DNA from: Bacteroidales bacterium
GTDB lineage: Bacteria; Bacteroidota; Bacteroidia; Bacteroidales; UBA932
Length of the DNA stretch: 34,167 nucleotides
Assembly (NCBI GenBank): GCA_017445015.1
Contig: JAFSVL010000090.1
Span: forward strand, 1 to 34,167
Reading direction: 5' to 3'
Shown here: positions 2,035-21,288 of the stretch, in pieces
Layout: every line of letters starts with the position of its first letter
Position numbering within the stretch: position 1 is the stretch's first letter
Program-made: the position numbers and the translations under genes
Notes under the pieces: model-generated
The model's database searches: none
Told to the model about the DNA's origin: nothing
Seen by the model: the letters and a program-made list of their open reading frames with translations, nothing else

Positions 2035-2175
2035 ATGAAAAAAGTTTTAATTACATTGCTCCATTACGAGGTTCCTTCTTGCTTCGTATTCCAGAATACG
2101 CCATGCGGCGTACTCTGCGGCAGTTTTACGACTCCTGACATTGTCGAGGAGGACGGTAATTTCAATTGGGAGTAA
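2035..2175 (+). CDS. Small protein (46 aa) with paired Cys and C-terminal EEDGNFNWE, upstream of GLUG lipoprotein
   Basis: ATG at 2035 opens a 46-residue frame (MKKVLITLLHYEVPSCFVF...) ending in TAA at 2173-2175. It is judged real because it is homologous to the small frame at 5765. Both have Tyr, then Pro, then Cys five residues after the Tyr (Y11, C16), a second Cys exactly 12 residues later preceded by Leu (L27-C28), a Ser two residues on, and an acidic-aromatic C-terminus of the form EEDxxFxWE. Both stop exactly 15 nt before the ATG of a GLUG lipoprotein. The short hydrophobic start (KKVLITLL) is too short for a convincing signal peptide. From memory it resembles the many unnamed 50-70 residue Bacteroidales proteins with a Y-x-x-P start and a Cys/Gly-Ser middle. 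The function is unknown: it could be a leader, a chaperone-like partner or an exported peptide. Two small hairpins (2085-2100, 2098-2111) lie inside it. Confidence 0.6.
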   Translation: MKKVLITLLHYEVPSCFVFQNTPCGVLCGSFTTPDIVEEDGNFNWE

Positions 2176-2190
2176 AACATCTCAGAGGCT

Positions 2191-5100
2191 ATGAAAAAAA
2201 ATCTGTTTGCCCTTTGCGCGCTGGCAGCCATTGCCGCCGGCTGTGCCAAAAATGTAATCCAGGAACCCGTTGAAGGCGGTACTACCGTCATCAGCGCCAC
2301 AATGGCGGACGACCCGGTCGAAGCCAGGACAGCCATCGGGGAGAAAACGGGAACTTCGTATCCCATCATCTGGACTGCCGGTGACTGCATCAGTGTCAAC
2401 GGCTGCCCCTCGACGGCGCTGACCGAAGCGTCCATCAGCAACAACGGCAAAAATGCGACCTTTGAGATCGAGGGGCTGGTGAGCGCCCCGTTTACCGGTG
2501 TTTATCCGCTTTCCGCCGTCGCTTCCTACACAGACGGCGCCTATAAGGTCACCCTGCCCCAGGTGCAGCACTACACTGCGGGGAGTTTTGATCCCGCCGC
2601 GGCCGTCATGCTGGCCTCCGGAAGTTCGTCGCTTTCGTTCCAGAACGCCCTGGCCTACCTCAAGGTCAAGGTGACCGAGGGGAGCGATGCGGCCACGATC
2701 AAGTCCATGAAACTCGCTGCGGGGAACGGCGAGGCCCTGAGCGGCACTTTCTCCGCCGTTTTCGGCGAGACCTGTTCCATCACGGCCACCGGCTCCGGTT
2801 CCGGTGTCACCCTTGACTGCGGCGACGGCGTCGCGCTCGGGGAGGAACTAATCCTTGCGATTCCTGCACGCACCTATGCCCAGGGCTTTGTCATCACGGT
2901 CATCACTACCGCGAACAAATACCAGCAGGTGGCGTCTTCCGCCAGTTTCACCGCGGAAGCGGGCAAACTCTACAGCACCTCCTTCGCTTATGCGGAAGGC
3001 GGCGACTACAGTTCCGGCATCTGGACCGAGGAAGACCTCATCGCTTTCCTGGCCGCCGCGGACGGCGGGGTGGACGGCACCTACAACACGAGTCAGCTGG
3101 ACAAGACCACGGCTTCCTTCGGTGACTATTCCCAGTGGGTGGATACCGACGGAAAGGTCCATCTCAAGGCGGATATCACCCTTTCGCAGCCCGTGGACTG
3201 GTCCAAATCGGTGGAAAACCGCAAGAATTCGGTGACCAACTTCGACGGCTACTTTGACGGAGAGGGCCATACCATCACCATCGCTTCCGGTACCACCTGG
3301 CGTACCCCGCTGTTCATCAATGTCTGGGGTACCATCGCCAACCTGACCATCGCGGGTGAGATGCGTAACGACCACGCGCCCGAACTCGGTTCCGCCCTGG
3401 TCCATGCCCTGCAGGAAGGCGGTGTCCTGGACAACTGTACCAACCGCGCCGACATCACTTATGACACGGTGGACCAGGAAAACTGGAAAAACGTATTTGT
3501 GGCAGGACTGGTGGCTCTGACCAGCAAAGCGACCGTGACGGGCTGTACCAATTACGGCACCCTCAATGTCACAGGAAAGGCTCAGAACCTCGCCCGCGTC
3601 GGCGGTGTCGCCGTTTATGCCGATTACGAGACCGTCATTACCGGCTGTACCAATTACGGGGAAATCATTGGCTCCACTTACAGTTTTGAAGGCAACCGCA
3701 TTGCGGAAGTGGGAGGTGTTGTCGGTTATGCCGCGCACAATGCCAGCGTGACGAACTGTTACAACCGGGCCGCCGTATTCAATACCGGAAAGGCAAAGCA
3801 GGTGGGCGGTGTCATCGCCAGCGCACGGACGGATCTCTCCGGCCTGCACAACTATGCTCCCATCGTCCAGGGGGACGACAATGACTCTACGACCGTAGGC
3901 GGCGTCATCAACTGGATCGGTGCGGGTTACACCCTCAGCAATTCCACCAACAATGCGGCCCTCACGGCTGGCAAGGCGAAGGAAATCGGCGGCGTCATCC
4001 TCACGGTTTACGGTTCCGCCAGGAACTGCACCAACAACGGGACGATTTATGCCAGCAACCGCTCGACGGTCGTCGGCGGCGTAGCCCGTACCGTCGAATC
4101 CGCCGGCGTGCTGGAAAACTGTACCAATGCGGCCGATTTCCTCGTGATGAGCGCCTACCTTGCAGGTGTCGTCGCCAAGAACCAGGGTACGGTCACCGGT
4201 TGCACCAACAACGGGAATATCAGTTTCGGCGCGACCAAATGCCGTGCGGCGGGTATCGCCTATGACAACAAGGCCATCATGACGGACTGTGTCAACAACG
4301 GTTCCATCGACTGCGACCAGACCTTCTGCAATATCGGCGGTATTATCTGCCGGAACTCCTATACCACCTCCGACAGTGTCAATACCTACGCGACCCTGAC
4401 CAATTGCGACAACAACGGCACCATTACCGTTACCGGTGAAAACAGCCGTGCAGCAGGTATCTGCTTCAATATGGTCGGCGGTACCATCAAGGACTGTGAC
4501 AACACGGCGGACGTGACCATCGACCTGGTTCCCGTCAGTGCCGGTGTCGTGGAATTCGCATCCGGCGTGGTGGGTATCGTTTCCCGTCAGGACCTCTCTG
4601 TGACCGATGTCGCCAATATTTTCTCCAATGCCACGGGTTCCTATTCCCCGGTATCGACCTACAAACAGAATATCCACGAGTCGAAGCTGCTGATTGAGAA
4701 TTGCACCAACACCGGCCATATCAAGATCAAGGCGGCGCCCGCATCTTCTTCCGCCTTCCTGCGCAATGTGGCCATCGGCGGCATCGTCGGCTGGAACTGG
4801 GGCGCCACCACGGATGACGCTTATCTGGAGATTAAAGACTGCACCAACGGCGATCCCCAGGCCACGACGGATACGGACTATTATTACGTCCAGTTCCAGC
4901 AGAGCGTGAATCCGCCCTCCTACCTGGCGCCCGCGCTGGGCGGCATCATCGGCCAGTCCGCCCCGTACAACGCCGGTTCCGGCGGTGTCACCATTTCTCC
5001 CTATACGGAAGGCTATGCCACGAGCAGCTGGCGTGACGGAATGAAACTCGTCATTGACGGGTGCAAGTCCTATGGTGTCGTCGCCAACGGTGATTCCTGG

Positions 5101-5751
5101 TCCGGAGGCGCCGGATTTACCACGCGTGCCATCCGCGGCAGCGGCGGTATCGGCGGACTCCTTTACGGTTCCAAGGACGAGGGACAGAGCGTGATTGTCA
5201 GGAACTGCACCAGCAATGCTTACGTGTTCATGGGACCGATCAAGGGGAAGAATGGCTTCACGCCTTCTTCCAAGAGCAACTGTGTGGGCGGCATCGCCGG
5301 TTGCGCCGCCTATGTGGATGTTGACAATTGTACCGTCAAGGGGCAGGTTGGCTCCACCACCCGCTTCATCCTGGCGGCTGGCGGCATCTTCGGTACCTGT
5401 ATCGAACGCTTCAGCATTACCAATTGCAGCCTGGAGATGCCGATGGGCTATTGCAACAACCAGCAGCGTCAGCACTGGGGCCTTGCCGTGGGCGGCATCG
5501 TCGCCTTCCCGACGGCTGCGGCCCGCAACCAGGGCTATGCCACCCTTTCCGGTTCCGTCATTTCCAATAATGTATTCAAGCCCGGGACGGTGAATGAATG
5601 GGTGCTCAATGGAAACGATGATGTCATTGCTTCCCATGCGGTGGAAATCGATGCGGCCAACTTCCGGAATTACATCATCTGCGCGGCGGATGCGGCCAAC
5701 AATGCCACCAATGGCTGGCTTACGATGAGTGGCAATACCTTTGGAGACTAA
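2191..5751 (+). CDS. GLUG-repeat surface lipoprotein with fimbrillin-like N-terminal module
   Basis: This 1186-residue protein starts with a lipoprotein signal peptide (MKKNLFALCALAAIAAGC, lipidated Cys18). Residues ~30-270 form a fimbrillin/Mfa-like module: ARTAIG (R46-T47), WTAGDCISVNG, a PLSA-type strand, FDPAAAVMLASG, and a closing YSTSFAY strand. A linker (IWTEEDLIAFLAAADGG) and an entry strand (FDGYFDGEGHTITI) follow. Residues ~390-1150 are many GLUG-type repeats of the form GGVVG..........NCYNRA or GCTNNGNI. These usually build a right-handed beta-helix on the cell surface. It ends NATNGWLTMSGNTFGD, which is nearly repeated at the end of its paralogue at 5939. It lies 15 nt after the small gene at 2035, and the next small gene starts 13 nt after its stop. 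The likely role is adhesion or glycan binding (inference); no catalytic motif is visible. Confidence 0.85.
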   Translation: MKKNLFALCALAAIAAGCAKNVIQEPVEGGTTVISATMADDPVEARTAIGEKTGTSYPIIWTAGDCISVNGCPSTALTEASISNNGKNATFEIEGLVSAPFTGVYPLSAVASYTDGAYKVTLPQVQHYTAGSFDPAAAVMLASGSSSLSFQNALAYLKVKVTEGSDAATIKSMKLAAGNGEALSGTFSAVFGETCSITATGSGSGVTLDCGDGVALGEELILAIPARTYAQGFVITVITTANKYQQVASSASFTAEAGKLYSTSFAYAEGGDYSSGIWTEEDLIAFLAAADGGVDGTYNTSQLDKTTASFGDYSQWVDTDGKVHLKADITLSQPVDWSKSVENRKNSVTNFDGYFDGEGHTITIASGTTWRTPLFINVWGTIANLTIAGEMRNDHAPELGSALVHALQEGGVLDNCTNRADITYDTVDQENWKNVFVAGLVALTSKATVTGCTNYGTLNVTGKAQNLARVGGVAVYADYETVITGCTNYGEIIGSTYSFEGNRIAEVGGVVGYAAHNASVTNCYNRAAVFNTGKAKQVGGVIASARTDLSGLHNYAPIVQGDDNDSTTVGGVINWIGAGYTLSNSTNNAALTAGKAKEIGGVILTVYGSARNCTNNGTIYASNRSTVVGGVARTVESAGVLENCTNAADFLVMSAYLAGVVAKNQGTVTGCTNNGNISFGATKCRAAGIAYDNKAIMTDCVNNGSIDCDQTFCNIGGIICRNSYTTSDSVNTYATLTNCDNNGTITVTGENSRAAGICFNMVGGTIKDCDNTADVTIDLVPVSAGVVEFASGVVGIVSRQDLSVTDVANIFSNATGSYSPVSTYKQNIHESKLLIENCTNTGHIKIKAAPASSSAFLRNVAIGGIVGWNWGATTDDAYLEIKDCTNGDPQATTDTDYYYVQFQQSVNPPSYLAPALGGIIGQSAPYNAGSGGVTISPYTEGYATSSWRDGMKLVIDGCKSYGVVANGDSWSGGAGFTTRAIRGSGGIGGLLYGSKDEGQSVIVRNCTSNAYVFMGPIKGKNGFTPSSKSNCVGGIAGCAAYVDVDNCTVKGQVGSTTRFILAAGGIFGTCIERFSITNCSLEMPMGYCNNQQRQHWGLAVGGIVAFPTAAARNQGYATLSGSVISNNVFKPGTVNEWVLNGNDDVIASHAVEIDAANFRNYIICAADAANNATNGWLTMSGNTFGD
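3540..5640 (+). repeat. GLUG-type beta-helix repeat region in the first GLUG lipoprotein
   Basis: The protein repeats a ~20-35 residue unit, typically a hydrophobic Gly-Gly turn (VGGVVG, AGVVAKN, GGIICRN), a variable stretch, then a Cys-Thr/Asp-Asn turn (GCTNYG, NCYNR, GCTNNG, NCDNNG). At DNA level the GGCTGTACCAA and AACAACGG elements recur. Several units also match the second GLUG gene, including a 26-nt stretch identical at 4762-4787 and 8540-8565. Confidence 0.75.
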
Positions 5752-5764
5752 ATGCTTAAAGACC

Positions 5765-5923
5765 ATGAAGTTATCTGAATATTTGGATTCTGCGGCCCGG
5801 GGGGAGTATATCCCCCCATATTGCCGTACCAACGCCCTTGTGCGTAAACAGGCCCTTTGTGTCAGCAACCTGGCGGAGACCAACCCCGCCACGGAGGAGG
5901 ATTATGATTTTGACTGGGAATAA
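5765..5923 (+). CDS. Small protein (52 aa) with paired Cys and C-terminal EEDYDFDWE, upstream of second GLUG lipoprotein
   Basis: The ATG at 5765 (MKLSEYLDSAARGEYIPPYC...) is chosen over an earlier in-frame ATG at 5729, which lies inside the preceding gene. It is paralogous to the small protein at 2035: Y15 and C20 have the same five-residue spacing, C32 follows 12 residues after C20 and is preceded by Leu, Ser lies two further on, and the C-terminus is EEDYDFDWE against EEDGNFNWE. It begins 13 nt after the previous stop and ends 15 nt before the next ATG, so it is almost certainly co-transcribed. There is no signal peptide: the N-terminus is charged and amphipathic. The function is not known. 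The independent preservation of Cys spacing, C-terminal motif and position argues against a chance frame. Confidence 0.72.
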   Translation: MKLSEYLDSAARGEYIPPYCRTNALVRKQALCVSNLAETNPATEEDYDFDWE

Positions 5924-5938
5924 CAGCGCGTCTGAATT

Positions 5939-8900
5939 ATGAAAACAAGAACCCTTATTCTTTTCGGAGCATCCTTTTCGCTCCTTGCCGCCTGCAATAC
6001 GGCGGAACTGGAACCTGCTTTCCCCGAAGGCGCCGCTGAAAATCCTGCGGTAACTGTTTTGGAGGCCTCGACGGCCGGAGACCTTGTCCCGGATTCCCGG
6101 ACGGCGTTCGGCGACAAGGACGGAAACACGTACCCTGTCCTCTGGTCGGAGGGAGATTGCATCAGCGTGAACGGAGTTGCAAGCGCACCCCTGGCTTCCG
6201 GAGGCGGAGTTTCCGCGGCATTTAACTTTAATGCCCTGCTCGACGCACCCTTCCAGGGCGTATATCCGCTTTCCGCGGTAAAATCCTATGCCCAGGGCGT
6301 CTATTCGATTTGCGTGCCTTCCGGTCAGACCTATGTTCCGGGGCAGTATGATCCGGCGGCGGGCATCATGCTCGCCAGCGGCAGCGGCAGCCTCTCCTTC
6401 CGGCATGTGATGTCCTATCTGAAGATTACGGTCACCGGAAGCGGCAGTGAGAAGATTCAGTTCGTGAGCGTTTCCGCCCGGGGCGGTGAAGACCTCAGCG
6501 GCACCTTCACCCCGGTTTTCGGGGCAGCCCCTTCCCTGACGGGCGGGACCGGCGGCAACGCCGTCACCCTGGACTGCGGAGCGGCGGGCGTATCGCTCGG
6601 GACGGAACTCATTATCCCCATCCCGGCACGCACGCTTGCCTCAGGCCTGTCCGTAACCGTCCGGACCACGGACAAGAAGTTCTGTACCATGACTTCTTCC
6701 GCATCCTTCGCGCCCGTGGCCGGCAGAATCTACAAGACTTCCTTTGCCTTTGAGGAAAAGGGCTCTGCGAAGGGCATCTGGACCGAGGAAGACCTCGTCG
6801 CCTTCCTCGCCGCCGCGGACGGAAAGGTTGCCTGTTCCAACTACACTTCGTCGAAAGACATCTCGGAGGCCCTTTTCGGGGATTATTCCGATTATGTCGG
6901 CGAGGACGGGGCGGTCCATATCAAGGCGGACATCACCCTTTCTTCGACCATCGACTGGTCCGGTTCGGCGGCCAGCCGCAAAAATGCGGTTTCGAACTTT
7001 GACGGCATCCTTGACGGCGAGGGCCATACCATCACCATTGCAGACGGTACGTCATGGAAGACGCCCCTCTTCATCAATCTGTACGGAACCATCAGGAATC
7101 TTAAACTGGCGGGCAACATGACGGCATCACATGCCGCGACGCTGGGCGCTCCGCTCGTGAACGTCGTCCAGGCGGGGGGCGTGGTTTCCAATGTGCAGAA
7201 TTATGCGGACGTTACTTACAATACCGTCATTTCAGCCACAAACACGAATTATACCGCGCTGCGTCTTGGCGGCGTGGCCGCTTATGTCTTTGGTACGGTG
7301 CAGGACTGTGAAAATCATGGCGCCGTCACTGCGGGGGGAACCCTTGTTCCCGGAACGAATACCATCGCTTATGTAGGAGGTGTCGTCAGCGCCATCAATA
7401 CAGGCGGACTGGTGACCCGCTGTACCAACTACGGCCCCGTCACGACCAGTCTCCTTGACAGGGACGGCAAAGTGCTGACCAATTTCTATGTCGGCGGTGT
7501 CTGCGGTTATGTCAATTATGGAAGCGGCAGTTGGGGAACCATCAACTACTGCTACAACCGCGCTGCGGAACTGGAGGCCGGAACGGCTTACTATCTGGGC
7601 GGCGTCGTCGGGGGGGCGCGCAGCAGCGGCCTGTCGCAACTTCATAATTACTGTCCCATTACGGCGGAAGACGATAATTCCGCGACTTCCCAGATGGGAG
7701 GCGTTACCGCATTTCTCGGTGCAGGTTATACCATGAGCGACTGTACCAACAATGCAAGCATTTATGCCGGTGGCTGCTCCCAGGCCGGAGGTGTCATGTG
7801 CATCGCCTACGGCAGCATGACCAATTGCGTGAACAACGGGATGCTCAGTTGTGCGGACGGTCAGCTTGAGACCCGGCTGGGCGGTGTATGCCGCGAGGTG
7901 AAAAGCGGCGCGACGCTCACCAACTGCCGCAATACCGCAGATCATGTGTTGAAGACCACTTACTATGCCGGGGTTACCTGCCTGAACTCAGGCACGCTTG
8001 ACGGATGTTCCAACAGCGGAAACATCAGTTTCGGCGTTGACTACGGGCGGCTCGCCGGCGTTGTCTATGACAATTCCGGCACCATGACCGGCTGCTCCAA
8101 CAGCGGCAGCATTTCATGCGACAAGGAAAATTGCAACATGGCCGGAGTCGTTGCCCTCAACCGGTCCTCCATGACCAACTGCGACAACAGCGGGACCATC
8201 ACCGTAACAGGAAACGGCTCGCTTCCTGCGGGGGTATGTTTCAATATGGTCGGCGGAACCATCGACGGTTGCGACAACAGCGGAGACATTACCGTCGATG
8301 TCGCGCCGGCCTCCGCCGGGGAAATCGCCTCCGTCGGCGGTATCGTGGGCATCGTCAGTAAAACCACTTTCGCCAATACCTCCGGAAAGTTGATTTTCCC
8401 CCAGAAAAATGATGGGCGCTACGGCCCGGCCTACAGTTTCACCGACAATGTGCTGGATGCCGTCCTGACCATCCAGAACTGCACCAATACCGGCCAGTTG
8501 AAGATCATCTCAAAACCCGCAAATTCATCGGTGTTCCTCCGCAATGTGGCCATCGGCGGCATCGTGGGCTGGAACTGGGCCAAGAGCACGGATGATTATT
8601 TCCTGAAGGTGCTTAACTGTACCAACGGCACCGGCGTCGCGGCGACCAGGACCAAAGGCATGATAGACTTTGAGCAGGCGGGTGCTTCCGCTTATATCGG
8701 ACCTTCACTCGGCGGAATCATCGGGTGGAGCGCTCATTATAATACGTCTGGGAACAACGGACTGCTTCCTTACCTTCCGGACTGGGCGCAATCCTTGGGA
8801 GACCAGGGCTTCAAGGTATGGATCGAGGGCTGCAGGAGTTATGCACGGATTTCCAATATGGCATCATACTCCAGCACTCCGGATTCCCCTACCGAGCGGG

Positions 8901-9490
8901 CGCTGCGGCCCTGCGGCGGAATTGCGGGCGTCCTTTACGGTCATTCCACTTCCCATGCCGTGGTCAAGGATTGTACTTCCGCCACCTACATCCTCATGGG
9001 TACGACTGGTTCCGGTACGGCGACGCAAAAACAGTCTCTGACCAACTGCGTGGGCGGAATCGCAGGATCCGCGGCATTTGTCGACGTCTCAGGATGCACG
9101 ATCAACTCCAGCCGGACTGATACCTACGGAGTCGGTTCCGAGAGCCGGTATGTCTTTGCGGCGGGCGGCGTATTCGGCGCCGCGCTCGAAAAATTCAGCG
9201 TAACCGACTGCGACATCCACATGCGGATAGGCTATATGAACAACAAGGATTATTCCAACTGGGGCCTTGTGGCGGGTGTGGTTACTCCCCGGAGCAGAAC
9301 ACGGGGTTACACCAACCTCATGGGCTGCGAAATATCCGGCAACCGGATTCTTCCCGGGACCGTCAAGGTCAATAATACGACCCAGACCATCACGGAATCC
9401 AACTTCGGGGACTATCTCATCAGCGCTGCGGATGCGGCCGACAATGCCACCAATGGCTGGCTGACCTGTAGCAACAATACTTGGGAATAG
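5939..9490 (+). CDS. Second GLUG-repeat surface lipoprotein, paralogue of the gene at 2191
   Basis: This 1183-residue protein has the same order of parts as its neighbour: lipoprotein signal (SFSLLAAC, Cys19), a fimbrillin-like module with SRTAFGD (R54-T55), LWSEGDCISVNG, YPLSAV, YDPAAGIMLASG and IYKTSFAF, then IWTEEDLVAFLAAADG, FDGILDGEGHTITI and a long GLUG-repeat helix. Blocks such as NVAIGGIVGWNW and the C-terminal NATNGWLT are almost unchanged between the two, while the repeat edges have diverged; this is an old tandem duplication. It probably presents a glycan-binding or adhesive beta-helix at the surface (inference). The stop at 9488-9490 lies only 4 nt before the regulator's ATG, so the two are probably translated from one message. 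Confidence 0.85.
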   Translation: MKTRTLILFGASFSLLAACNTAELEPAFPEGAAENPAVTVLEASTAGDLVPDSRTAFGDKDGNTYPVLWSEGDCISVNGVASAPLASGGGVSAAFNFNALLDAPFQGVYPLSAVKSYAQGVYSICVPSGQTYVPGQYDPAAGIMLASGSGSLSFRHVMSYLKITVTGSGSEKIQFVSVSARGGEDLSGTFTPVFGAAPSLTGGTGGNAVTLDCGAAGVSLGTELIIPIPARTLASGLSVTVRTTDKKFCTMTSSASFAPVAGRIYKTSFAFEEKGSAKGIWTEEDLVAFLAAADGKVACSNYTSSKDISEALFGDYSDYVGEDGAVHIKADITLSSTIDWSGSAASRKNAVSNFDGILDGEGHTITIADGTSWKTPLFINLYGTIRNLKLAGNMTASHAATLGAPLVNVVQAGGVVSNVQNYADVTYNTVISATNTNYTALRLGGVAAYVFGTVQDCENHGAVTAGGTLVPGTNTIAYVGGVVSAINTGGLVTRCTNYGPVTTSLLDRDGKVLTNFYVGGVCGYVNYGSGSWGTINYCYNRAAELEAGTAYYLGGVVGGARSSGLSQLHNYCPITAEDDNSATSQMGGVTAFLGAGYTMSDCTNNASIYAGGCSQAGGVMCIAYGSMTNCVNNGMLSCADGQLETRLGGVCREVKSGATLTNCRNTADHVLKTTYYAGVTCLNSGTLDGCSNSGNISFGVDYGRLAGVVYDNSGTMTGCSNSGSISCDKENCNMAGVVALNRSSMTNCDNSGTITVTGNGSLPAGVCFNMVGGTIDGCDNSGDITVDVAPASAGEIASVGGIVGIVSKTTFANTSGKLIFPQKNDGRYGPAYSFTDNVLDAVLTIQNCTNTGQLKIISKPANSSVFLRNVAIGGIVGWNWAKSTDDYFLKVLNCTNGTGVAATRTKGMIDFEQAGASAYIGPSLGGIIGWSAHYNTSGNNGLLPYLPDWAQSLGDQGFKVWIEGCRSYARISNMASYSSTPDSPTERALRPCGGIAGVLYGHSTSHAVVKDCTSATYILMGTTGSGTATQKQSLTNCVGGIAGSAAFVDVSGCTINSSRTDTYGVGSESRYVFAAGGVFGAALEKFSVTDCDIHMRIGYMNNKDYSNWGLVAGVVTPRSRTRGYTNLMGCEISGNRILPGTVKVNNTTQTITESNFGDYLISAADAADNATNGWLTCSNNTWE
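7250..9300 (+). repeat. GLUG-type beta-helix repeat region in the second GLUG lipoprotein
   Basis: The pattern is as in the first copy: Gly-Gly hydrophobic turns (LGGVAAYV, VGGVCGYV, GGVVGGAR) alternate with Cys-Thr/Ser-Asn turns (RCTNYG, DCTNNA, GCSNSG, NCDNSG). A run of GCSNSG-type units at about 8000-8300 is more regular than the rest, which suggests recent internal unit copying. Confidence 0.7.
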
Positions 9491-9494
9491 TCCT

Positions 9495-12400
9495 ATGGGG
9501 TTGCGGCGCACGCTGATTGTGACCTTCCTGTTCTGCCTCTGCACGCTTGCAGGGGCGGAACAGGCGGGTTACAGTTTCCTGCGCTTTGACAAAACCAATT
9601 CCAGCCTGCCCTGCGACGGCGTCCGTGTGATGCTGCAGGACAGCCGGGGCTATGTCTGGCTGGGGACCTATAAGGGAGTGAGCCGTTACGACGGTACCCG
9701 TTTCCTGACCTATGGGACGGAGTATATCAGTTCCCTTTCGGAGAGCGCTTCCGGCGATGTCTGGATCGGTACCGATGACGGGGCGGTCGTTTACCGTTAT
9801 GCGGAGGACCGCTTCGAGCGCATCGATACCACACGGCTTCCGCCCGACAGGGTATTCTCCTTCCTACAAAGACCCGGCGGTGATTTTCTGGCCAGCGTAC
9901 GTTCCCGGGGGCTGTTTGTGCTGCCTTCCGGGGAAAAGGACTTCCGGCCATTCCCGGTCAGGACGCCGGAAGGGGAGTCCCTGCTCTCCGTTTACCGCAT
10001 GGCCTGTACCGGGGAAGACAGGCTCTTTGTCGCCGACTACAGCAATAATCTCTATGAAATCTGCGACACCCTGGCCGTTCCCGTGCTGGGAGACTTTTTC
10101 AAGGATGACAATATCGAAGGTCTCTGCGCAGATGCCCAGGGGGTGCTCTGGATCGCCTCGCAGCGGTATGGGCTGTGCCGGCTGAACAGGGTCAGCGGGT
10201 TTGCCGCTACGGTATGTGCGTTGCCCGAAGGGGCGCGTCCGACCAATGTGACCTGCGACGGCCGTTATGTGTGGTTCAGTACTTCTGCAGGCTTGTTCCG
10301 CTATCATCCCGCGTCAGGAGGGGTGAAGTTCTTCACCCATGATCCGGCGGATATTTCTTCCCTTTCCGAACGTTCCGTAACCTATGCCATGACGGATGCG
10401 GCGGGAAGCCTTTGGGTGGCTACGCCGGACAACGGGGTCAACTGGCGCAACGCCAATGAAGACCGTTTCATCAAACTGGTGACCACCGATACCGGCGAAC
10501 ATCTGGAAGGGGCGGCCATCACCTCCTTCGCCTCCCGTCCGGACGGTAAGGTATGGGTGGGTACGGCCAATTCGGGCATTCTGCTGCTGGACCCTTCCAC
10601 GACGACCCTGACCCGCAGGGGCGTGCCCGGGAACCTGCCTTCCGGCGTATCTGCGCTCTGCGCGGATGGTGCCGCACTTTGGATAGGAACGCAGCGGGGC
10701 CTGTACTACATGGCGTCCGGGGGCAGCGTCAGGCAGGCAGCGGATCTGCGCATCGTCAGTCTCTTCCGCTCGGCGGAAGGCGACCTGTACGTGGGATCCA
10801 ACGTGGGCGTTTTTGTCTATGACCCTTCGCTCGAAGCTCTCAGGCCCATCCACGGCCTGGAGGATGTGACGGTCGAAGATATGGTCCAGTCCGCCGGAGG
10901 CCTGGTCTGGATGGCCTCCTATTCCATGGGCGTATTCCGTTATGATCCCCTCAGCAGGGAGGTGAAGCGTTACTGTTCCCAGCGGGGCGACTCCCCGGTC
11001 CGGGCCATGACCTCTTCGGTCTGTGTAGATGCTTCCGGTGTCCTTTGGGTGACGGGCTTTTCGTCCGGAATGTATTATTTCAAGGATGGCGATTTCCGGC
11101 TTTCTGACCGCTTTGTTCCCGGACGCCTTTCCTCCAGCCTCTATTACACGGCCCTCCCGGATGATGCCGGACACCTTTGGATCAGTTCTGACAGCGGGCT
11201 GCTGGACTATGATACCAAGACCTCGTGTGTGAATAAATTCACGACCTACGACGGCCTGCAATGCAACCGTTTCCTCAAGGGGGGCATCAAACTGCCGGAC
11301 GGCCGGCTGGTATTTTCCTATCGTTACGGACTGCTGCTTTTTGACCCCTCCCAGATCAAAAACGGTGCTTCGTCTTCCGTACAGGTGGCTATCACCGGCC
11401 TGCGTGTCGGAGGGAAGCGCCGGCAGAACCCGGATTCCGGCAATCCGGATACCGTCTCCGAACTCAGACTGCGTTCCGGTGAACGAAACCTGGCGATGGA
11501 TTTTTCCATCCCGGGAGATCCGGACCGGGCCCTGCACAATATTTTCTGCTGCCTCGAAGGGTATGACGCCGGCTGGCGAAATGTTTCCTCCGGCCGCAGC
11601 GTCGAATATTACAACCTGCCCAAAGGCCGCTATGTGATGCGGATCGGCCTCATGATGGCCGACGGGCGGGTGCAGCCCGCGCACAAATCCCTGAAAATCG
11701 TGGTGCCCCCGCGTTTCTTTGAATCCGTCTATGGCATCCTTCTGATTATCCTGCTGGCCACCGGTCTTGTGGCCGCCCTGATGACTTTCTTCTACCGGAG
11801 GGCCATGTCATCCCAGTCCGCTCATCTCTACCACGAGAAAATGGACTTCTTCGCGAATGTGATTCACGAAATCAAGACCCCTCTCACGCTGATCCGTACG
11901 CCGCTCCAGAACCTGATGATGGACGATGAGCTGTCTGCCGACCGGAAGGAGGACCTGGAACTCATCGGAAATTCCACGGATTATCTGGAAAAACTGGTGC
12001 GGGAACTGCTCGAATTCATCAGCGTGGAGGAGCACGGTTATGTGCTTGAACTCTCGGATGTGAATTTTGTGGACCGCATGGGCTTTGTGTGCTCCACATA
12101 CGCCGAATCCGTACGGAGCCGGAACCTGCGCCTCAGTTTCCTGCACGACGAGGATGAAATCGTCTGTGCCGTGGATACCAAGGCATTCTCCAAGATTGTC
12201 AACAACCTGATGGGGAATGCGCTCAAGTATGCAGAATCGTTTATTGAACTGGAACTGCGCAGGGAGGATGACCGGATCCAACTTTATTTCCGCAATGACG
12301 GACCGCAGATCCCGCAGGAGCGCCGGCAGGCGATCTTTACCCCTTTCGTCCATTTTGCGGCGGGGCAGGAGGGCCAGAGTTTCGGTATCGGACTGCCGCT

Positions 12401-13328
12401 GGCGCGGCGGCTGGCCGAACTTCACCGGGGGTCGCTGGTCCTGACGGAACGCGAGGACCTGACGGAATTCCTGCTGACGCTGCCGCTCCGGCACGCGGAT
12501 GCTTCCGCCGGGGAAAAGGAGGGGAATGATGCGGATTCCGCCGATATCGGTGTACCGGTCGCCAATATGCCGTTGCTGCTCATTGTAGAAGACAATCCGG
12601 ACCTGCTGGGATATCTGCGGCGCAAATTGTCCCCGGAATACAAGGTGATTGCGGTGAATTCCGCGGAAAAGGCGCTCGAAAAACTATCCGCTTACAAGGT
12701 GGACCTGCTGCTCACGGACCTCGGCCTGCATTCGATGAGCGGCATCGACCTTTGCGCAAAGATGAATTCCACCCCCTCGCTGGCGCATATCCCGATTATC
12801 GTGCTGTCGGCGATATCGTCCGTGCGCACCAAGATCAAATGCATGGAGAACGGCGCCTCGATGTATATTGAAAAGCCCTTCAGCCTGGACTACCTGATGA
12901 CCTGCATCAAGTCGGTTCTGGAAAAGCGCAAGGCGGCGAAAAATGTCTATCGCGGCGGCGGGGAAGCGGTGAGCATAGACCTCCCGGACCGCGATGAGGA
13001 ATTCATGCAGCGCATCGACAAGTTCATCCGGGAAAATATCCAGGATCCGACCCTGGGAAACAAGCGTATCGAAGAGGCGCTTTTTGTCAGCCACTCGTCG
13101 CTGAACCGGAAGATGAAGGAAATTTACGGAACCACCCCCAACGAGTATATCCGGAATCTGCGGCTGGAACTGGCCGCGCGGATGCTCCGGCGGGGAGGGA
13201 ACCTGATCAGTGAAGTCTGCTACAATGTGGGCTTCAACAGTCCGTCGTATTTTGCCAAGTGTTTCAAGGAGAAGTACGGCGTGCTTCCGGCGGAGTACGC
13301 CCGTCGGAATAATGAGGAAAATCATTAA
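9495..13328 (+). CDS. Hybrid two-component system (HTCS) sensor-regulator, AraC-type output
   Basis: This 1277-residue protein is a one-piece sensor kinase, response regulator and transcription factor typical of Bacteroidota polysaccharide loci. After a signal peptide (LIVTFLFCLCTLAGA) comes a double beta-propeller of Reg_prop repeats to ~620 (GYVWLGTYKGVSRYDG, GDVWIGTDDG, GVLWIASQRYG, GSLWVATPDNG, GHLWISSDSG). A Y_Y_Y domain spans ~628-735 and one membrane segment ~743-766 (YGILLIILLATGLVAAL). HisKA carries the phospho-acceptor His791 (FANVIHEIKTPLTLI). The HATPase (~890-1000) has NNLMGNALKY and FGIGLPLARRLAELHRG. The receiver (~1024-1145) has E1032-D1033, phospho-acceptor Asp1075 (LLTDLGL) and EKPF. 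The AraC HTH (~1175-1277) has VCYNVGFNSPSYFAKCFKEKYG. All catalytic residues seen are intact. The ligand is probably an oligosaccharide in the periplasm. It sits within its presumed target operon. Confidence 0.95.
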   Translation: MGLRRTLIVTFLFCLCTLAGAEQAGYSFLRFDKTNSSLPCDGVRVMLQDSRGYVWLGTYKGVSRYDGTRFLTYGTEYISSLSESASGDVWIGTDDGAVVYRYAEDRFERIDTTRLPPDRVFSFLQRPGGDFLASVRSRGLFVLPSGEKDFRPFPVRTPEGESLLSVYRMACTGEDRLFVADYSNNLYEICDTLAVPVLGDFFKDDNIEGLCADAQGVLWIASQRYGLCRLNRVSGFAATVCALPEGARPTNVTCDGRYVWFSTSAGLFRYHPASGGVKFFTHDPADISSLSERSVTYAMTDAAGSLWVATPDNGVNWRNANEDRFIKLVTTDTGEHLEGAAITSFASRPDGKVWVGTANSGILLLDPSTTTLTRRGVPGNLPSGVSALCADGAALWIGTQRGLYYMASGGSVRQAADLRIVSLFRSAEGDLYVGSNVGVFVYDPSLEALRPIHGLEDVTVEDMVQSAGGLVWMASYSMGVFRYDPLSREVKRYCSQRGDSPVRAMTSSVCVDASGVLWVTGFSSGMYYFKDGDFRLSDRFVPGRLSSSLYYTALPDDAGHLWISSDSGLLDYDTKTSCVNKFTTYDGLQCNRFLKGGIKLPDGRLVFSYRYGLLLFDPSQIKNGASSSVQVAITGLRVGGKRRQNPDSGNPDTVSELRLRSGERNLAMDFSIPGDPDRALHNIFCCLEGYDAGWRNVSSGRSVEYYNLPKGRYVMRIGLMMADGRVQPAHKSLKIVVPPRFFESVYGILLIILLATGLVAALMTFFYRRAMSSQSAHLYHEKMDFFANVIHEIKTPLTLIRTPLQNLMMDDELSADRKEDLELIGNSTDYLEKLVRELLEFISVEEHGYVLELSDVNFVDRMGFVCSTYAESVRSRNLRLSFLHDEDEIVCAVDTKAFSKIVNNLMGNALKYAESFIELELRREDDRIQLYFRNDGPQIPQERRQAIFTPFVHFAAGQEGQSFGIGLPLARRLAELHRGSLVLTEREDLTEFLLTLPLRHADASAGEKEGNDADSADIGVPVANMPLLLIVEDNPDLLGYLRRKLSPEYKVIAVNSAEKALEKLSAYKVDLLLTDLGLHSMSGIDLCAKMNSTPSLAHIPIIVLSAISSVRTKIKCMENGASMYIEKPFSLDYLMTCIKSVLEKRKAAKNVYRGGGEAVSIDLPDRDEEFMQRIDKFIRENIQDPTLGNKRIEEALFVSHSSLNRKMKEIYGTTPNEYIRNLRLELAARMLRRGGNLISEVCYNVGFNSPSYFAKCFKEKYGVLPAEYARRNNEENH

Positions 13329-16693: not shown

Positions 16694-19024
16694 ATGAAAC
16701 GGCTGGCGCTTGTCCTTCTGGCATCTGTCCTGTTCCCGCTGCTCTCTGAAGCGGCGGGCAGGAAAAAAACGGCCGGGGCGGAGGACGGTTTTGACGTCTA
16801 TCTGCTGATCGGCGAGGCCAATATGGCGGGCCGGGGCTTTCTGGACCCGAGGGACAAGTTTGCCTTGGACGGCGTCTTTCTTCTCAATGACCGCGGGGAA
16901 GTCGTACCTGCGACACAGCCGCTGAACCGTTATTCCTCCGTGCGTTGCCTGCTCAAGTGGCAGGCGACCTGCCTGGGCGGCGCCTTTGCCGAAGATGTGC
17001 ACCGGGCGACGGGCCGCAGGATCCTGCTGGTGGTGAATGCCCGCGGCGAGACTTCCGCCCGCCAGTGGCTGCCCGGCGCGGAAGGCATCGTCGCCAAGGC
17101 TTCTTCCGATGATTTGTTCAACGAGGGAGAGACCCTCCCTTCGCTCTACGACGAGGCCGTCCGCCGTACCCGCGAGGCGCTCCGTTACGGGAAACTCAAG
17201 GCCATCCTCTGGCACCAGGGCGAGCGGGATGCCTATGAGCAATATGCCCCGCTCTGGGCCGGAAAGGTGGAGGAAATCGCCTCTTCCCTGCGTTCCGACC
17301 TCAAGTGCGGTCCCGTCCCTTTTATCGCCGGGGAGACCAATGAGGCCTTTGAACGGAGTACTTTCATCAATCCGGAAATCCAGGGGCTTCCGAAGATGCT
17401 GTCCCGCTGTGATTATGTGCCTGCGGAAGGCTGTCTGGTGAACAAAAACCAGAAGAGTTTCAGCCGTCAGGGCGTGACGCTGCTCGGGCACCGTTATGCC
17501 TCCAAGGTGTTGCAGATGGTCTATGGCTGGAGCCCGGAGAAGGCGGATGCCGTCTGTCGCCTTGGGGGAGAGCAAGCCTATGCAGGCGCTCCGCTGGATA
17601 ACGACGGAATGTACACGCTCTGCGATTTTGATGCGCGCTGCTGTGCGGTTGGCGAGGCCAATACCCGTTTTTCGGTGGTGCCCAACCCGGCTCCGGATGC
17701 CGTGAATGCCTCCGCGCTGGTGGGACGCATCGAACTGCAAGGCGGAACCTGGGACTGTATTTCCCTTAATCCGAGCTCTCCGCTGGACTTTGGTGGCGGG
17801 AAGACGGAAATCCGTTTCAAGGTGCTTCCGCCCGCGGACGGGGCTTCCCTGAGCGTCAAGCTTACGCCCTTCCGCAGCAAATGCTGCGAGCCCGTGAAAG
17901 TGGAAATTCCCCTCAAGGCATCAGGCGGATGGCAGGAGGTCGTGGTGGACCTCTCGCAGTACGCTGCGTATTCCAATTACTTCCAGAAATTTTATCTGAT
18001 GCCTGACGGAGGGGAACGTATCCGTCGTGTCTGGTATTTTGACGATGTGCTGATTCCCGACGACGACCTTTCGTCCCTGAGCCTCTTCCGGCGGGCGGCA
18101 CCGCCCCTCAAGGCGGACAAGTCCAAATCCTGGATGAGCAATTCCATCGCCAATCCGGGCATTCTCCGGCCGGAACAGACCCTGGACGGGCGCTGGTGGC
18201 TGATGGTGCGCGGCGGTGACGGAAGACAAGGGCATAACGGCTACTTTACCCAGGAGGCGGAAGGCTTCAACCCGCTGGGAGGATGGCAGGACCACGACGC
18301 GAACCCGACGATGCCTGCGGGCTGGTGGGGCGAAGAGGACGCATCCACCGCCATCGACCCCTGCGGATTTACCGTGGACGGGACGTTCTACTATTATTAT
18401 AAGGGTATTGCCAAAGGCGGAGTCAATAGCGTGCTGGTCGCCCGGACCACGGACGGGAAGCGGTTTGAGAAGGTGCTTCCGATATGGAAGTCCGATTGCG
18501 GCGTGGCCGACGTGGGGAAATGGAACGGGAAGTACTGGCTCTATGTGGCGCGCCGGATCTATTTCTATGAGCATCCGGAATCCTCGGAAGGCGCCGTCTG
18601 CTGCGATATCCTTGAACCCGGCGGGGGACCGGACAACTGTGACTGGTACTCTATCAACGGAGGAAAAATGCTGTATATGGACGGGAAATGGTTCCTTTTC
18701 TACCAGGCGGGGGTCTGCAATCCCGATTTTCCGGGACGTATCCATGTCGCCTGGTCCGATGACCTGCTGCATTTTACGAAGGTACAGAACCCTCAGCCGC
18801 TCTTTACCCGCGGACCTCGCGGGGCGTGGGACCAGGGCGCCGTCTGGGCGCCGAGCGTCTTTGAATACGGAGGAACGCTCTACATGTATTACGAAGGCTG
18901 GGGTGTGGAAGGTGCCGTCACCAACCGCGACCGCCAGTATTTCCGTGACGGTGACGGCGGCCATTCCCAAATCGGGATTGCCGCCTGCTCCAAGGATGAT
19001 TTCCTCAAATGGTGCGGCCTATGA
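16694..19024 (+). CDS. SASA-type pseudo-esterase domain fused to five-bladed beta-propeller glycosidase-like domain
   Basis: This 776-residue protein has a type I signal peptide (VLLASVLFPLLSEAA). Residues ~33-280 are an SASA (sialate O-acetylesterase-like, SGNH) domain: VYLLIGEANMAGRG, WHQGERD (E177) and FSRQGVTLLGHRYA. The family's GQSNMAG serine is Ala42, and the DxxH pair is N252...S255, so the triad is gone. Residues ~345-455 look like a sugar-binding sandwich ending VWYFDDVLIPDDD. Residues ~465-776 are a GH43/GH32/GH117-superfamily-like propeller (NSIANPGILRPE, AIDPCGFTVDG, GGPDNCDWYSINGG, GAWDQGAVWAPSVFEYGG). This half is closely paralogous to the next gene. CAZy family and substrate are unclear. 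Its stop overlaps the next ATG (ATGA). Confidence 0.75.
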   Translation: MKRLALVLLASVLFPLLSEAAGRKKTAGAEDGFDVYLLIGEANMAGRGFLDPRDKFALDGVFLLNDRGEVVPATQPLNRYSSVRCLLKWQATCLGGAFAEDVHRATGRRILLVVNARGETSARQWLPGAEGIVAKASSDDLFNEGETLPSLYDEAVRRTREALRYGKLKAILWHQGERDAYEQYAPLWAGKVEEIASSLRSDLKCGPVPFIAGETNEAFERSTFINPEIQGLPKMLSRCDYVPAEGCLVNKNQKSFSRQGVTLLGHRYASKVLQMVYGWSPEKADAVCRLGGEQAYAGAPLDNDGMYTLCDFDARCCAVGEANTRFSVVPNPAPDAVNASALVGRIELQGGTWDCISLNPSSPLDFGGGKTEIRFKVLPPADGASLSVKLTPFRSKCCEPVKVEIPLKASGGWQEVVVDLSQYAAYSNYFQKFYLMPDGGERIRRVWYFDDVLIPDDDLSSLSLFRRAAPPLKADKSKSWMSNSIANPGILRPEQTLDGRWWLMVRGGDGRQGHNGYFTQEAEGFNPLGGWQDHDANPTMPAGWWGEEDASTAIDPCGFTVDGTFYYYYKGIAKGGVNSVLVARTTDGKRFEKVLPIWKSDCGVADVGKWNGKYWLYVARRIYFYEHPESSEGAVCCDILEPGGGPDNCDWYSINGGKMLYMDGKWFLFYQAGVCNPDFPGRIHVAWSDDLLHFTKVQNPQPLFTRGPRGAWDQGAVWAPSVFEYGGTLYMYYEGWGVEGAVTNRDRQYFRDGDGGHSQIGIAACSKDDFLKWCGL

Positions 19025-21288
19025 AAAATCGCGCTGTCTTCCTGCTTGGCTGCCTTTTCGCGTTTTCCTGCTCCCCGTTGCGCGATGGGGAGGTGACGCG
19101 TTTTGCCGTCCGGCTTCCCTCCGATGCGGAGACCCGGGTACACATGGGCGCGAAGGCAGGGGAGACCTATCCGCTGCTTTGGTCTCCGGGAGACCGTATC
19201 TGCGTGAACGGACGCACCTCCTCTCCGGTGGATATCGCTGAAACCGGTACGCGCGAGGCGCATTTTACCTTTTCCGGAACGCTGGCGGCACCTTTTCTTG
19301 CCGTTCATCCCGAAAGTGCCTATCTGGACGGAACACGGCTGCGCTTCCCTTCGGTACAGACGCACAAGGATGCCTCCTGTGCCTATAACAGCAGCGTCCT
19401 GGCCGGCCGTTCACAGCAGTTGGAGGAAGGGATTGCGCTGCAGGCCGTCAGCGGTTACATCCGTTTCCGCATCGACAAGGGCGATTATTCCGGCACGCTG
19501 AAGAAACTCTCGCTGCGCGGCAATGGCGGGGCTCCGCTGGCGGGCGATTTTTCGCTGGGGTTCGATGCGGACGGTGCTCCGGAACTCGGTCCCTGCATCG
19601 CCCCGGCGGAGGAAGTCGTGCTCAGCGCGCTTTCCGCTTCCGGTGAATACATCGTGGCCCTGCCGCCGGTGGACCTCCCGCAGGGTTTTACCCTGACCGT
19701 CTATGGCAGCCGGTCGGATTTTATGCGGGTGCGGACGACGGACCCGGTGCGGATCCGCTCCGGCGTGCTACTCAATGCCCCGGCCCTGAGTTATGCGGCG
19801 AACGGGACCCTCATCGACGGGAGCGTCCCGGACTACCTTTCCGGAGAGGCCCCGGACCTTTACCTGCTGACGGATTTTGAGACCCGCTACTGTGAGCGTG
19901 TAGCCGCGACGGTGGATTTTGCGACCTGCGCAAATCCCTTGAAGGAAGGGATCAACCCTTCGGATTCCTGCCTGCAGATTACCACCGCCGGCCGGACCTA
20001 CGACTGTGCCGCGCTGTATTCCCCCTTTTCGCTGGACTACGGGCTGCGGACCGCGGAAATCCGGATGAAGGTGCTGCCTCCGCGGGCGAATGCGCCCTTT
20101 GCCATCAAACTGTCGCCCGTCAATACGGCAACCTGTCCCGAAACGCTGCTCAGTTGCACGCTGGGACCCGCAGGGGAGTGGCAGGAAATCAGTTTCGACC
20201 TTTCGCCCTATGTCCGATATTCGAATTTCTACCGTCGTATCTATGTCTATCCGGATTACGGTGTAAAGCTTTCCTCCGTCTGGTATATTGACGATCTATA
20301 TGTTCCGGACGACGATATTTCCGCCTTTTCGCTCTTTAAGCGTGCCGCCCCGCCGATGCTGCCGGACCCCTCGAAATTTTGGATGAGCAATTCCATCGCC
20401 AATCCGCATATCCTCACGCCGGAGCGGACGCTGGACGGAAAGTGGTGGCTGCTGACCCGCGGCGGCGACAAATACAAAGGCCGTCTGGGGTATTATACGC
20501 AGGACGCAGCGTCCTTTCACCCGCTCGGGCCTTGGCAGTACCATCCGGGCAATCCCATCATTGACGTGAACATTCACGGCGAGGAAGTAGATTCCTTCCA
20601 GGCCATCGACCCCTGCGGATTTGTCGTGGACGGTGTCTTTTACCTTTATTACAAAGGAAACGGCTGGAAGGACGGGGCGATGACGAGCACCGTCCTGCTG
20701 GCGACATCCACGGACGGGCAGACATTCACCCCGGTCATGACGCCGTGGAAGTCCGGAATCGGTGTGGCGGATGTAGTGCAGTGGAATGGAAAGTACTGGC
20801 TCTATGTAGCGCGGCGCATCTATGAATTTACAGACCTGATGAGCGGGGAGGGTGCCGTTGAGCACAAGGACATCCTTCTGCCCGGAGGAGGGCCGGACAA
20901 CTGCGACTGGTACTCCATCAACGGCGGCAAACTGTTCTATATGGACGGCCGCTGGTTCCTGTTCTATCAGGCGGGGACCCGCAACCCGGATTTTCCGGGC
21001 CGCTTCCATGTGGCCTGGTCGTCGGATATGTTGCATTGGACCAAGGTGGGCAATCCCCGCCCGCTGTTTACCCGGGGGCCGCGCGGAGCCTGGGATCAGG
21101 GGGCCATCTGGGCGCCCAGCGTCTTTGAATGGCAGGGGAATCTGTATATGTACTATGAGGGTTGGGGCATCGAGGGCGCGGTACCGAACCGTGACGAGGC
21201 CTATTTCCTTGATAAAATCGGCGGGCATTCGCAAATAGGCATAGCCGTATGCTCCAAAACGGATTTCCTTAACTGGTGTGGACTATGA
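19021..21288 (+). CDS. Fimbrillin-like lipoprotein fused to five-bladed beta-propeller glycosidase-like domain
   Basis: ATG 19021 is preferred over the in-frame ATG at 19009 because it overlaps the previous stop as ATGA and gives a proper lipoprotein signal (FLLGCLFAFSC, Cys17). The protein is 755 residues. Residues ~25-270 are the fimbrillin-like module: TRVHMG (R39), LLWSPGDRICVNG, APFLAVHPESAY, and closing NGTLIDG. A sandwich domain with WYIDDLYVPDDD follows. The last ~310 residues are a beta-propeller highly similar to the preceding gene (WMSNSIANPHILTPE, GVADVVQWNGKYWLYVARR, GAWDQGAIWAPSVFE, and an identical NWCGL/KWCGL end). Lipid anchoring suggests surface display, against a probably periplasmic paralogue. 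It is likely a glycoside hydrolase of the GH43-like superfamily; family not assigned. Confidence 0.75.
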   Translation: MKNRAVFLLGCLFAFSCSPLRDGEVTRFAVRLPSDAETRVHMGAKAGETYPLLWSPGDRICVNGRTSSPVDIAETGTREAHFTFSGTLAAPFLAVHPESAYLDGTRLRFPSVQTHKDASCAYNSSVLAGRSQQLEEGIALQAVSGYIRFRIDKGDYSGTLKKLSLRGNGGAPLAGDFSLGFDADGAPELGPCIAPAEEVVLSALSASGEYIVALPPVDLPQGFTLTVYGSRSDFMRVRTTDPVRIRSGVLLNAPALSYAANGTLIDGSVPDYLSGEAPDLYLLTDFETRYCERVAATVDFATCANPLKEGINPSDSCLQITTAGRTYDCAALYSPFSLDYGLRTAEIRMKVLPPRANAPFAIKLSPVNTATCPETLLSCTLGPAGEWQEISFDLSPYVRYSNFYRRIYVYPDYGVKLSSVWYIDDLYVPDDDISAFSLFKRAAPPMLPDPSKFWMSNSIANPHILTPERTLDGKWWLLTRGGDKYKGRLGYYTQDAASFHPLGPWQYHPGNPIIDVNIHGEEVDSFQAIDPCGFVVDGVFYLYYKGNGWKDGAMTSTVLLATSTDGQTFTPVMTPWKSGIGVADVVQWNGKYWLYVARRIYEFTDLMSGEGAVEHKDILLPGGGPDNCDWYSINGGKLFYMDGRWFLFYQAGTRNPDFPGRFHVAWSSDMLHWTKVGNPRPLFTRGPRGAWDQGAIWAPSVFEWQGNLYMYYEGWGIEGAVPNRDEAYFLDKIGGHSQIGIAVCSKTDFLNWCGL

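Follow-up and report, generated by a model that had tools for sequence, protein, structure and literature searches.

Two small proteins encoded next to lipoprotein genes in a Bacteroidales genome as probable precursors of an LPP-like peptide system

The system of linear polyphosphorylated peptides (LPP), described in 2026 (Nat Commun, PMC13381572), has a core made up of a SpI peptidase, a recognition element of ribosomally synthesized and post-translationally modified peptides (RiPPs; the element is abbreviated RRE), an HprK-like kinase, a nucleoside triphosphate (NTP) transferase and an MsbA-like transporter. According to that article, the precursors are encoded in the cluster and carry the motif YxxPxVLxHQxIxFETxxS, cleavage occurs after T-1, and the phosphates are placed on core Ser3. 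Catalytic residues of LppS are S29, H68 and D93, and N33 and D70 are conserved in LppB. The same article identifies [Y/W]xxPx[L/V/I/A/F/Y], which is part of the LPP motif, as the leader motif bound by lasso recognition elements, and reports an HprK-like kinase for paeninodin clusters as well. The system is stated to be restricted to Bacillota, and the stem 'Bacteroid' does not occur in the main text of the article. Here we describe a stretch of 34,167 nucleotides (nt) from a Bacteroidales bacterium, probably a rumen or gut dweller (contig JAFSVL010000090.1 of assembly GCA_017445015.1; the whole stretch is called the window). It encodes two small proteins, each directly followed by a lipoprotein gene. 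Gene arrangement and co-occurrence suggest, with a probability that we put at about 0.8, that these two peptides are precursors of an LPP-like RiPP system, precursors that are scattered over the genome, undergo maturation in trans and are each paired with a lipoprotein of their own.

The original prediction, made from the letters of the window, had pointed to two small open reading frames (ORFs), and both were present as described: peptide 1 (46 amino acids (aa), 2035-2175, + strand; supported by translation and a family profile match) and peptide 2 (52 aa, 5765-5923, + strand; supported by translation). The first Cys follows Tyr by five residues in both (Y11-C16 and Y15-C20), the two Cys are 12 residues apart (C16-C28 and C20-C32), the second one is preceded by Leu and followed two residues on by Ser, and the ends read EEDGNFNWE and EEDYDFDWE. 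In peptide 1 the YxxP motif occupies residues 11-14, Cys28 lies at Y+17 and Ser30 at Y+19, and the tail is acidic; in peptide 2 the corresponding positions are 15-18, Cys32 and Ser34. A GTG further upstream would extend the frame of peptide 2 to 64 aa. From family motif statistics, Tyr11-Cys28 (2065-2118, + strand) and Tyr15-Cys32 (5807-5860, + strand) are predicted to be recognition and processing segments, a function suggested by the described LPP precursors (PMC13381572).

The lipoproteins encoded downstream are of similar size. Lipoprotein 1 (1186 aa, 2191-5751, + strand) has a rule-based lipoprotein signal and GLUG repeats, the match to Glug (PF07581, E=4.4e-4) being barely over the cut-off. 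Lipoprotein 2 (1183 aa, 5939-9490, + strand) has such a signal and an Mfa_like_1 region (PF13149, E=9e-6, slightly below the curated cut-off). The four genes, in the order peptide 1, lipoprotein 1, peptide 2, lipoprotein 2, are separated by 15, 13 and 15 nt. Since the lipoproteins share 47% identity across 1208 aligned positions (BLASTP) and the peptides 30%, tandem duplication of one peptide-lipoprotein unit would be the simplest origin of the arrangement.

Both small ORFs prove to be genuine members of a large Bacteroidales family. A contig scan with peptide 2 alone as query found no relative; compared with 61 genomes (its own and related ones), peptide 2 gave weak matches, several of which kept the layout. 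A six-row profile made of the two window peptides and four weak relatives had matches in 90 of 151 genomes of the genus, the own genome included (E<=0.1 per genome), and a 52-row profile in 73 of 149 genomes of the taxonomic family (E<=0.01). The iterated profile collected 130 members at E<1e-3, 128 of them distinct, from 101 stretches (the window and 100 others, 1.23 Mb). The resemblance of the two peptides thus exceeds chance, and the family is not confined to the window, the case in which the original prediction was to be given up. A relative of peptide 2 (57% identity, L170) is followed by a similar-looking lipoprotein of 1201 aa. The window's genome contains 11 family matches at E<=0.01, and copy number reaches 21 matches in one genome. 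A short member-like ORF (L137:7513-7605, E=0.002) and two profile matches crossing one in-frame TGA (G375:C5 and G414:C9) are possible decaying copies. The family is covered by no Pfam or NCBIfam model: the NCBIfam library gave zero matches, and nine Pfam models were each matched by a single member (best E 0.018). Small proteins with a similar Y-x-x-P are common in Bacteroides and Prevotella; literature searches, which covered open-licence papers, turned up no description of this family in their results.

The pattern Y/F-x-x-P with C/A 16-18 residues after Tyr and S/T two residues further on was found in 124 of the 128 members. As the script demanded these residue classes, the informative values are the four misses and the spacing from Tyr to C/A, which was 17 residues in 120 members, 18 in three and 16 in one. 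Within the 124, the first position was Y in 122 and F in two, the second C in 118 and A in six, and the third S in 120 and T in four; the residue ahead of the conserved C/A was I, L, V or F. The segment after the conserved Cys had a median length of 20 residues and a median net charge of -5, positive in none of the 124, and 119 of the 128 members had W, F or Y among the last eight residues. The fixed Cys pair, originally taken for a conserved skeleton, is present in both window peptides, but Cys at Y+5 occurred in just 22 of 121 members with exact spacing, and the Cys pair was rejected as a family-defining feature. The idea that selection acts on a small protein fared better. The uncorrected ratio of nonsynonymous to synonymous differences (pn/ps) was below 1 in 75 of 76 member pairs, the remaining pair showing zero synonymous changes; the pooled value was 0.42, biased downwards by the preselection of pairs with at least 55% protein identity.

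Directly downstream of 106 of the 128 distinct members lies an ORF that satisfies the lipoprotein rule (a regular expression), at a distance of 11-19 nt in 84 of the 106 pairs. Controls from the same loci gave a downstream lipoprotein for 85 of 826 genes outside the family and for 16 of 354 small intergenic ORFs that are not members. Among the 22 members missed by the rule, six (L164, L154, L145, L074, L077, L064) are followed by proteins that look like lipoproteins by eye, and five by another member (L062, L058, L073_4011 and L082 by the script's rule, L051_1787 by eye). Four precede secreted-looking proteins (L148, L143, L163, L073_3872), one precedes the kinase described below (L183_16843), and L180, L065, L171, L155, L177 and L183_5055 are without a clear partner. 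Of 120 downstream proteins, 112 fell into one single-linkage BLASTP cluster (E<=1e-4); the N-terminal region that the partners appear to share is deduced from this one cluster, and such clusters can chain. Pfam recognised 20 families in the 120 partner N-termini (first 330 residues at most), with Mfa_like_1 in 12 of them and Glug in none. As to the question raised originally, whether homologues sit beside GLUG or fimbrillin genes, they sit beside genes of lipoproteins whose N-termini often appear fimbrillin-like, but GLUG as a general partner feature had to be rejected; the partners vary.

PqqD (PF05402) was detected in 11 of 13 genomes of the genus searched. The single match in the window's genome (G000:C90:39411-39587) belongs to an operon encoding an HprK-like kinase (293 aa), a SipW-like peptidase (162 aa), a discrete RRE of the PqqD type (89 aa, L197:9328-9597, PF05402 1.4e-15) and an MsbA-like ABC exporter (563 aa, L197:9604-11295, PF00664 and PF00005). 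Because this operon lies on another contig (C90), the window peptides would have to be matured in trans. The kinase had weak, sub-threshold library matches only (TIGR04249, TIGR04352 and PEPCK models) and the peptidase had zero matches in Pfam or NCBIfam; the peptidase of L198 showed sub-threshold matches to Peptidase_S24 and LexA. Kinase and peptidase were thus identified via sub-threshold matches or likeness to counterparts in other genomes, and the likeness of the peptidase to SipW was judged from its motif. Sequence searches of the PDB returned nothing significant for the peptidase (best 0.049, LexA), the kinase (best 0.31, PEPCK) or the RRE (0.078, fructose-1,6-bisphosphatase, then 0.14, TfuB1, which we take to be a lasso RRE).

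The motifs of the operon are intact, and catalytic-looking residues are conserved. In sets of homologues picked by profile score and length, all 88 RRE sequences have N35 and 87 of them D73, all 97 peptidase sequences have S36, H74 and D89, and all 97 kinase sequences have K163 and S164 of the GTGKST loop. N35 and D73 probably correspond to N33 and D70 of LppB, and S36, H74 and D89 probably to S29, H68 and D93 of LppS. Kinase matches were listed at no fewer than 583 places. Around the 80 best-scoring kinase relatives among the matches listed, some of whose loci are cut by contig ends, there was a peptidase in 78 loci, an RRE in 71, an ABC exporter in 59 and an NTP transferase in 12 (PF14907 matched with 3.4e-35 in L204). 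One further locus (L239, G081) combines a single kinase with two adjacent RRE-like ORFs; a peptide of the Ala type (LLAGSG) lies some 7 kb away.

Family members and operon occur together. The 149-genome searches were treated as one sample, as were the 198-genome ones, on the strength of equal totals and matching labels, genomes without a match being listed in part. A strict profile was positive in 73 of the 149 genomes of the taxonomic family; 71 of these had the kinase and 71 PqqD, compared with 30 and 34, respectively, of the 76 negative genomes (for the kinase [[71,2],[30,46]], p=1.1e-15; [[59,2],[30,46]], p=1.3e-13 after removal of 12 genomes that had contributed profile rows). With a mixed Cys/Ala profile the kinase was found in 84 of 89 positive and 17 of 60 negative genomes ([[84,5],[17,43]], p=5e-18; without 21 row-giving genomes [[64,4],[17,43]], p=1.3e-15). 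Counted by genus, the mixed-profile positives were exactly the nine kinase-bearing genera of 20 (p=6e-6). All 8 kinase-less genomes among the 64 of the window's genus were memberless by either profile. Across the order (198 genomes, 30 of them with a kinase match), all six strict-profile positives and nine of ten mixed-profile positives had the kinase. After removal of five row-giving genomes the latter value was four of five, at a base rate of 25/193 (p=0.001). The order-wide exception, a match in G300, was not recovered as an ATG-started member and is a probable false positive.

Eight loci from other genomes have members inside the operon or next to it, seven of them together with a lipoprotein. 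In L183, from a different taxonomic family, a member (L183:16843-16986) without a lipoprotein after it is followed 38 nt on by the kinase and then by peptidase, RRE, NTP transferase and exporter, all on one strand. The order in L233 is peptide, lipoprotein, NTP transferase, exporter, kinase, peptidase, RRE, and in L235 peptide, lipoprotein-like ORF, RRE, NTP transferase, exporter, kinase, peptidase. Two peptide-lipoprotein pairs precede kinase, peptidase, RRE and exporter in L236; two pairs follow the operon in L268, one pair follows it in each of L269 and L270, and in L225 a pair adjoins the operon's exporter. These loci are examples and give no rate: L236, L268, L269 and L270 were chosen because match lists hinted at linkage, L233 and L235 because their genomes have the kinase and lack strict-profile members, and L183 and L225 on account of their members and their kinase, respectively. 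The 80 best-scoring kinase loci come nearest to an unselected sample. In seven of these (L322, L323, L325, L329, L333, L334, L340) a member on the same strand lies at most 215 nt from the operon (113-215 nt away, overlapping in L323).

Compared with LPP, the loci described here share the RRE, the HprK-like kinase, a signal-peptidase-like peptidase with Ser-His-Asp, the MsbA-like exporter, in some loci the NTP transferase, and a precursor with an N-terminal YxxP, a Ser 18-19 residues after Tyr and a variable C-terminal part. They differ in host, Bacteroidales instead of Bacillota, and in that the members are often scattered, multicopy and mostly lipoprotein-paired. The precursor motif YxxPxVLxHQxIxFETxxS is not found, only YxxP and Ser being in common; we use the label 'LPP-like' and not LPP proper because the precursor consensus differs beyond these two elements. 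With the paeninodin-like lasso peptides, as far as these are treated in PMC13381572, the family shares the [Y/W]xxP leader, the discrete RRE, the HprK-like kinase and, in some loci, the NTP transferase, but a linear product would be expected here. Small precursors with a leader and a variable core, and ABC export, are shared with the GG-motif precursors and C39 peptidase transporters of Bacteroidales described in PMC10352776. In the present family GG is not the conserved feature, and the ABC protein of the window's genome matched ABC_membrane, ABC_tran and generic AAA/SMC models only, with no C39 peptidase domain.

These likenesses suggest the following course of events. The N-terminal half of the peptide, from YxxP to about the conserved Cys, would be a leader bound by the PqqD-type recognition element, and the HprK-like kinase encoded with this element would place phosphate on the conserved Ser. 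Cleavage by the SipW-like peptidase may then occur next to the conserved Cys/Ala; alignment by Ser would make Cys/Ala core residue 1, and the cut could fall on either side of it. The short acidic core would leave the cytoplasm through the MsbA-like ABC exporter, and the co-encoded lipoprotein might bind, display or anchor it at the cell surface. This role of the lipoprotein is the weakest step, with about even odds. Among the functions proposed originally, modification by an enzyme and export are the two best supported, by gene arrangement and co-occurrence only. More tentatively, and at somewhat less than even odds, one maturation and export machine may serve precursors scattered over the genome, most of them co-encoded with their own variable surface lipoprotein. 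The outcome would be a varied set of acidic peptides, phosphorylated and possibly decorated further, which the lipoproteins hold or present at the surface; such peptides would be parts of the envelope and not secreted antibiotics.

Several observations weigh against an LPP-like precursor role. The 20 kb surrounding the operon of the window's genome (L197) contain no member, and a recognised member was present in only 11 of the 80 best-scoring kinase loci. Neither an NTP transferase nor a precursor adjoins this operon, the rest of the genome not having been searched for NTP transferase. The leader often reads E-G-V/I-I/L-C-x-S, without HQxIxFET, and the Tyr-Ser distance is 19, not 18. In the seven operon-adjacent members residue Y+17 is Met (six) or Leu (one), never Cys or Ala, and only the one in L322 has Ser at Y+19, so that the phospho-Ser and the cut-site residue fail in this sub-group. 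The residues at the presumed sites of cutting and of phosphorylation thus differ from clade to clade, and members of the Met sub-group would have to carry another phosphorylated residue or none. Members occur without a kinase match at E<=1e-10 in five genomes of the taxonomic family (G374, G384, G386, G428, G438); PqqD at E<=1e-4 was found only in G428, and G374 and G386 had none even at E<=0.05. The members of these two genomes (L156) may reflect losses, assembly gaps or another machine. Among the 30 order-wide kinase matches some are weak and could belong to other HprK-like proteins, and shared ancestry is ignored by the Fisher and hypergeometric tests, for which each genome counts as independent. 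Finally, the argument is built from gene arrangement and co-occurrence.

The tight spacing and the position upstream of the lipoprotein, as well as the short acidic tail ending at the stop codon, would also fit a cis-acting leader ORF, whose translation couples or regulates that of the downstream lipoprotein gene and whose peptide is idle after synthesis. We consider this unlikely, since Y, P, C/A and S are conserved at the protein level, the family co-occurs with the operon, and members lie inside kinase/peptidase/RRE operons, in L183 before the kinase with no lipoprotein following. Translational coupling could be an additional effect.

The one-to-one pairing could equally be that of an unmodified small cytoplasmic partner or chaperone of the lipoprotein, unlinked to the kinase operon, and the members of G374 and G386, genomes without kinase or PqqD matches, agree with this. 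Co-occurrence and physical linkage with the operon, and the presence of YxxP, make such a role quite improbable. YxxP is, on the other hand, what a lasso-type peptide with the same leader and RRE and a cyclised core would have. The PqqD proteins match lasso PqqD chaperone models weakly (sub-threshold), and the kinase is of the type reported for paeninodin clusters in PMC13381572. Inspection by eye of the neighbours of the L197 operon revealed neither a B2 peptidase nor a macrolactam synthetase, a genome-wide search not having been made, and the operon holds a peptidase with the LppS-type Ser-His-Asp set; a cyclised core has in our estimate a very slim chance.

If one machine does serve the scattered precursors, the arrangement would be a many-to-one RiPP system acting in trans. 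Most of the LPP enzyme set is present in Bacteroidales, where co-occurrence and, at several loci, the operon itself connect it with a family of small genes. As members often lie at a distance from the enzymes, a search for RiPPs by gene cluster would probably overlook this connection. Their pairing with surface lipoproteins hints at a function of the peptides, one that is testable in a laboratory host.

Four nt after lipoprotein 2 the window encodes a 1277-aa protein (9495-13328), by its look a hybrid two-component regulator. In the same genome (L049), a protein of 1310 aa and similar look precedes another member, with its lipoprotein, by about 95 nt. Three more lipoprotein-like proteins with a similar-looking N-terminal region are encoded at 19009-21288, 24506-26068 and 28139-30580, the region being joined to GH43, GDSL lipase and DUF4886 domains; by eye, no such small ORF lies directly upstream of these three. 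On the opposite strand of lipoprotein 1 there is an open frame of 1014 aa (2848-5892, - strand), presumably a composition artefact.

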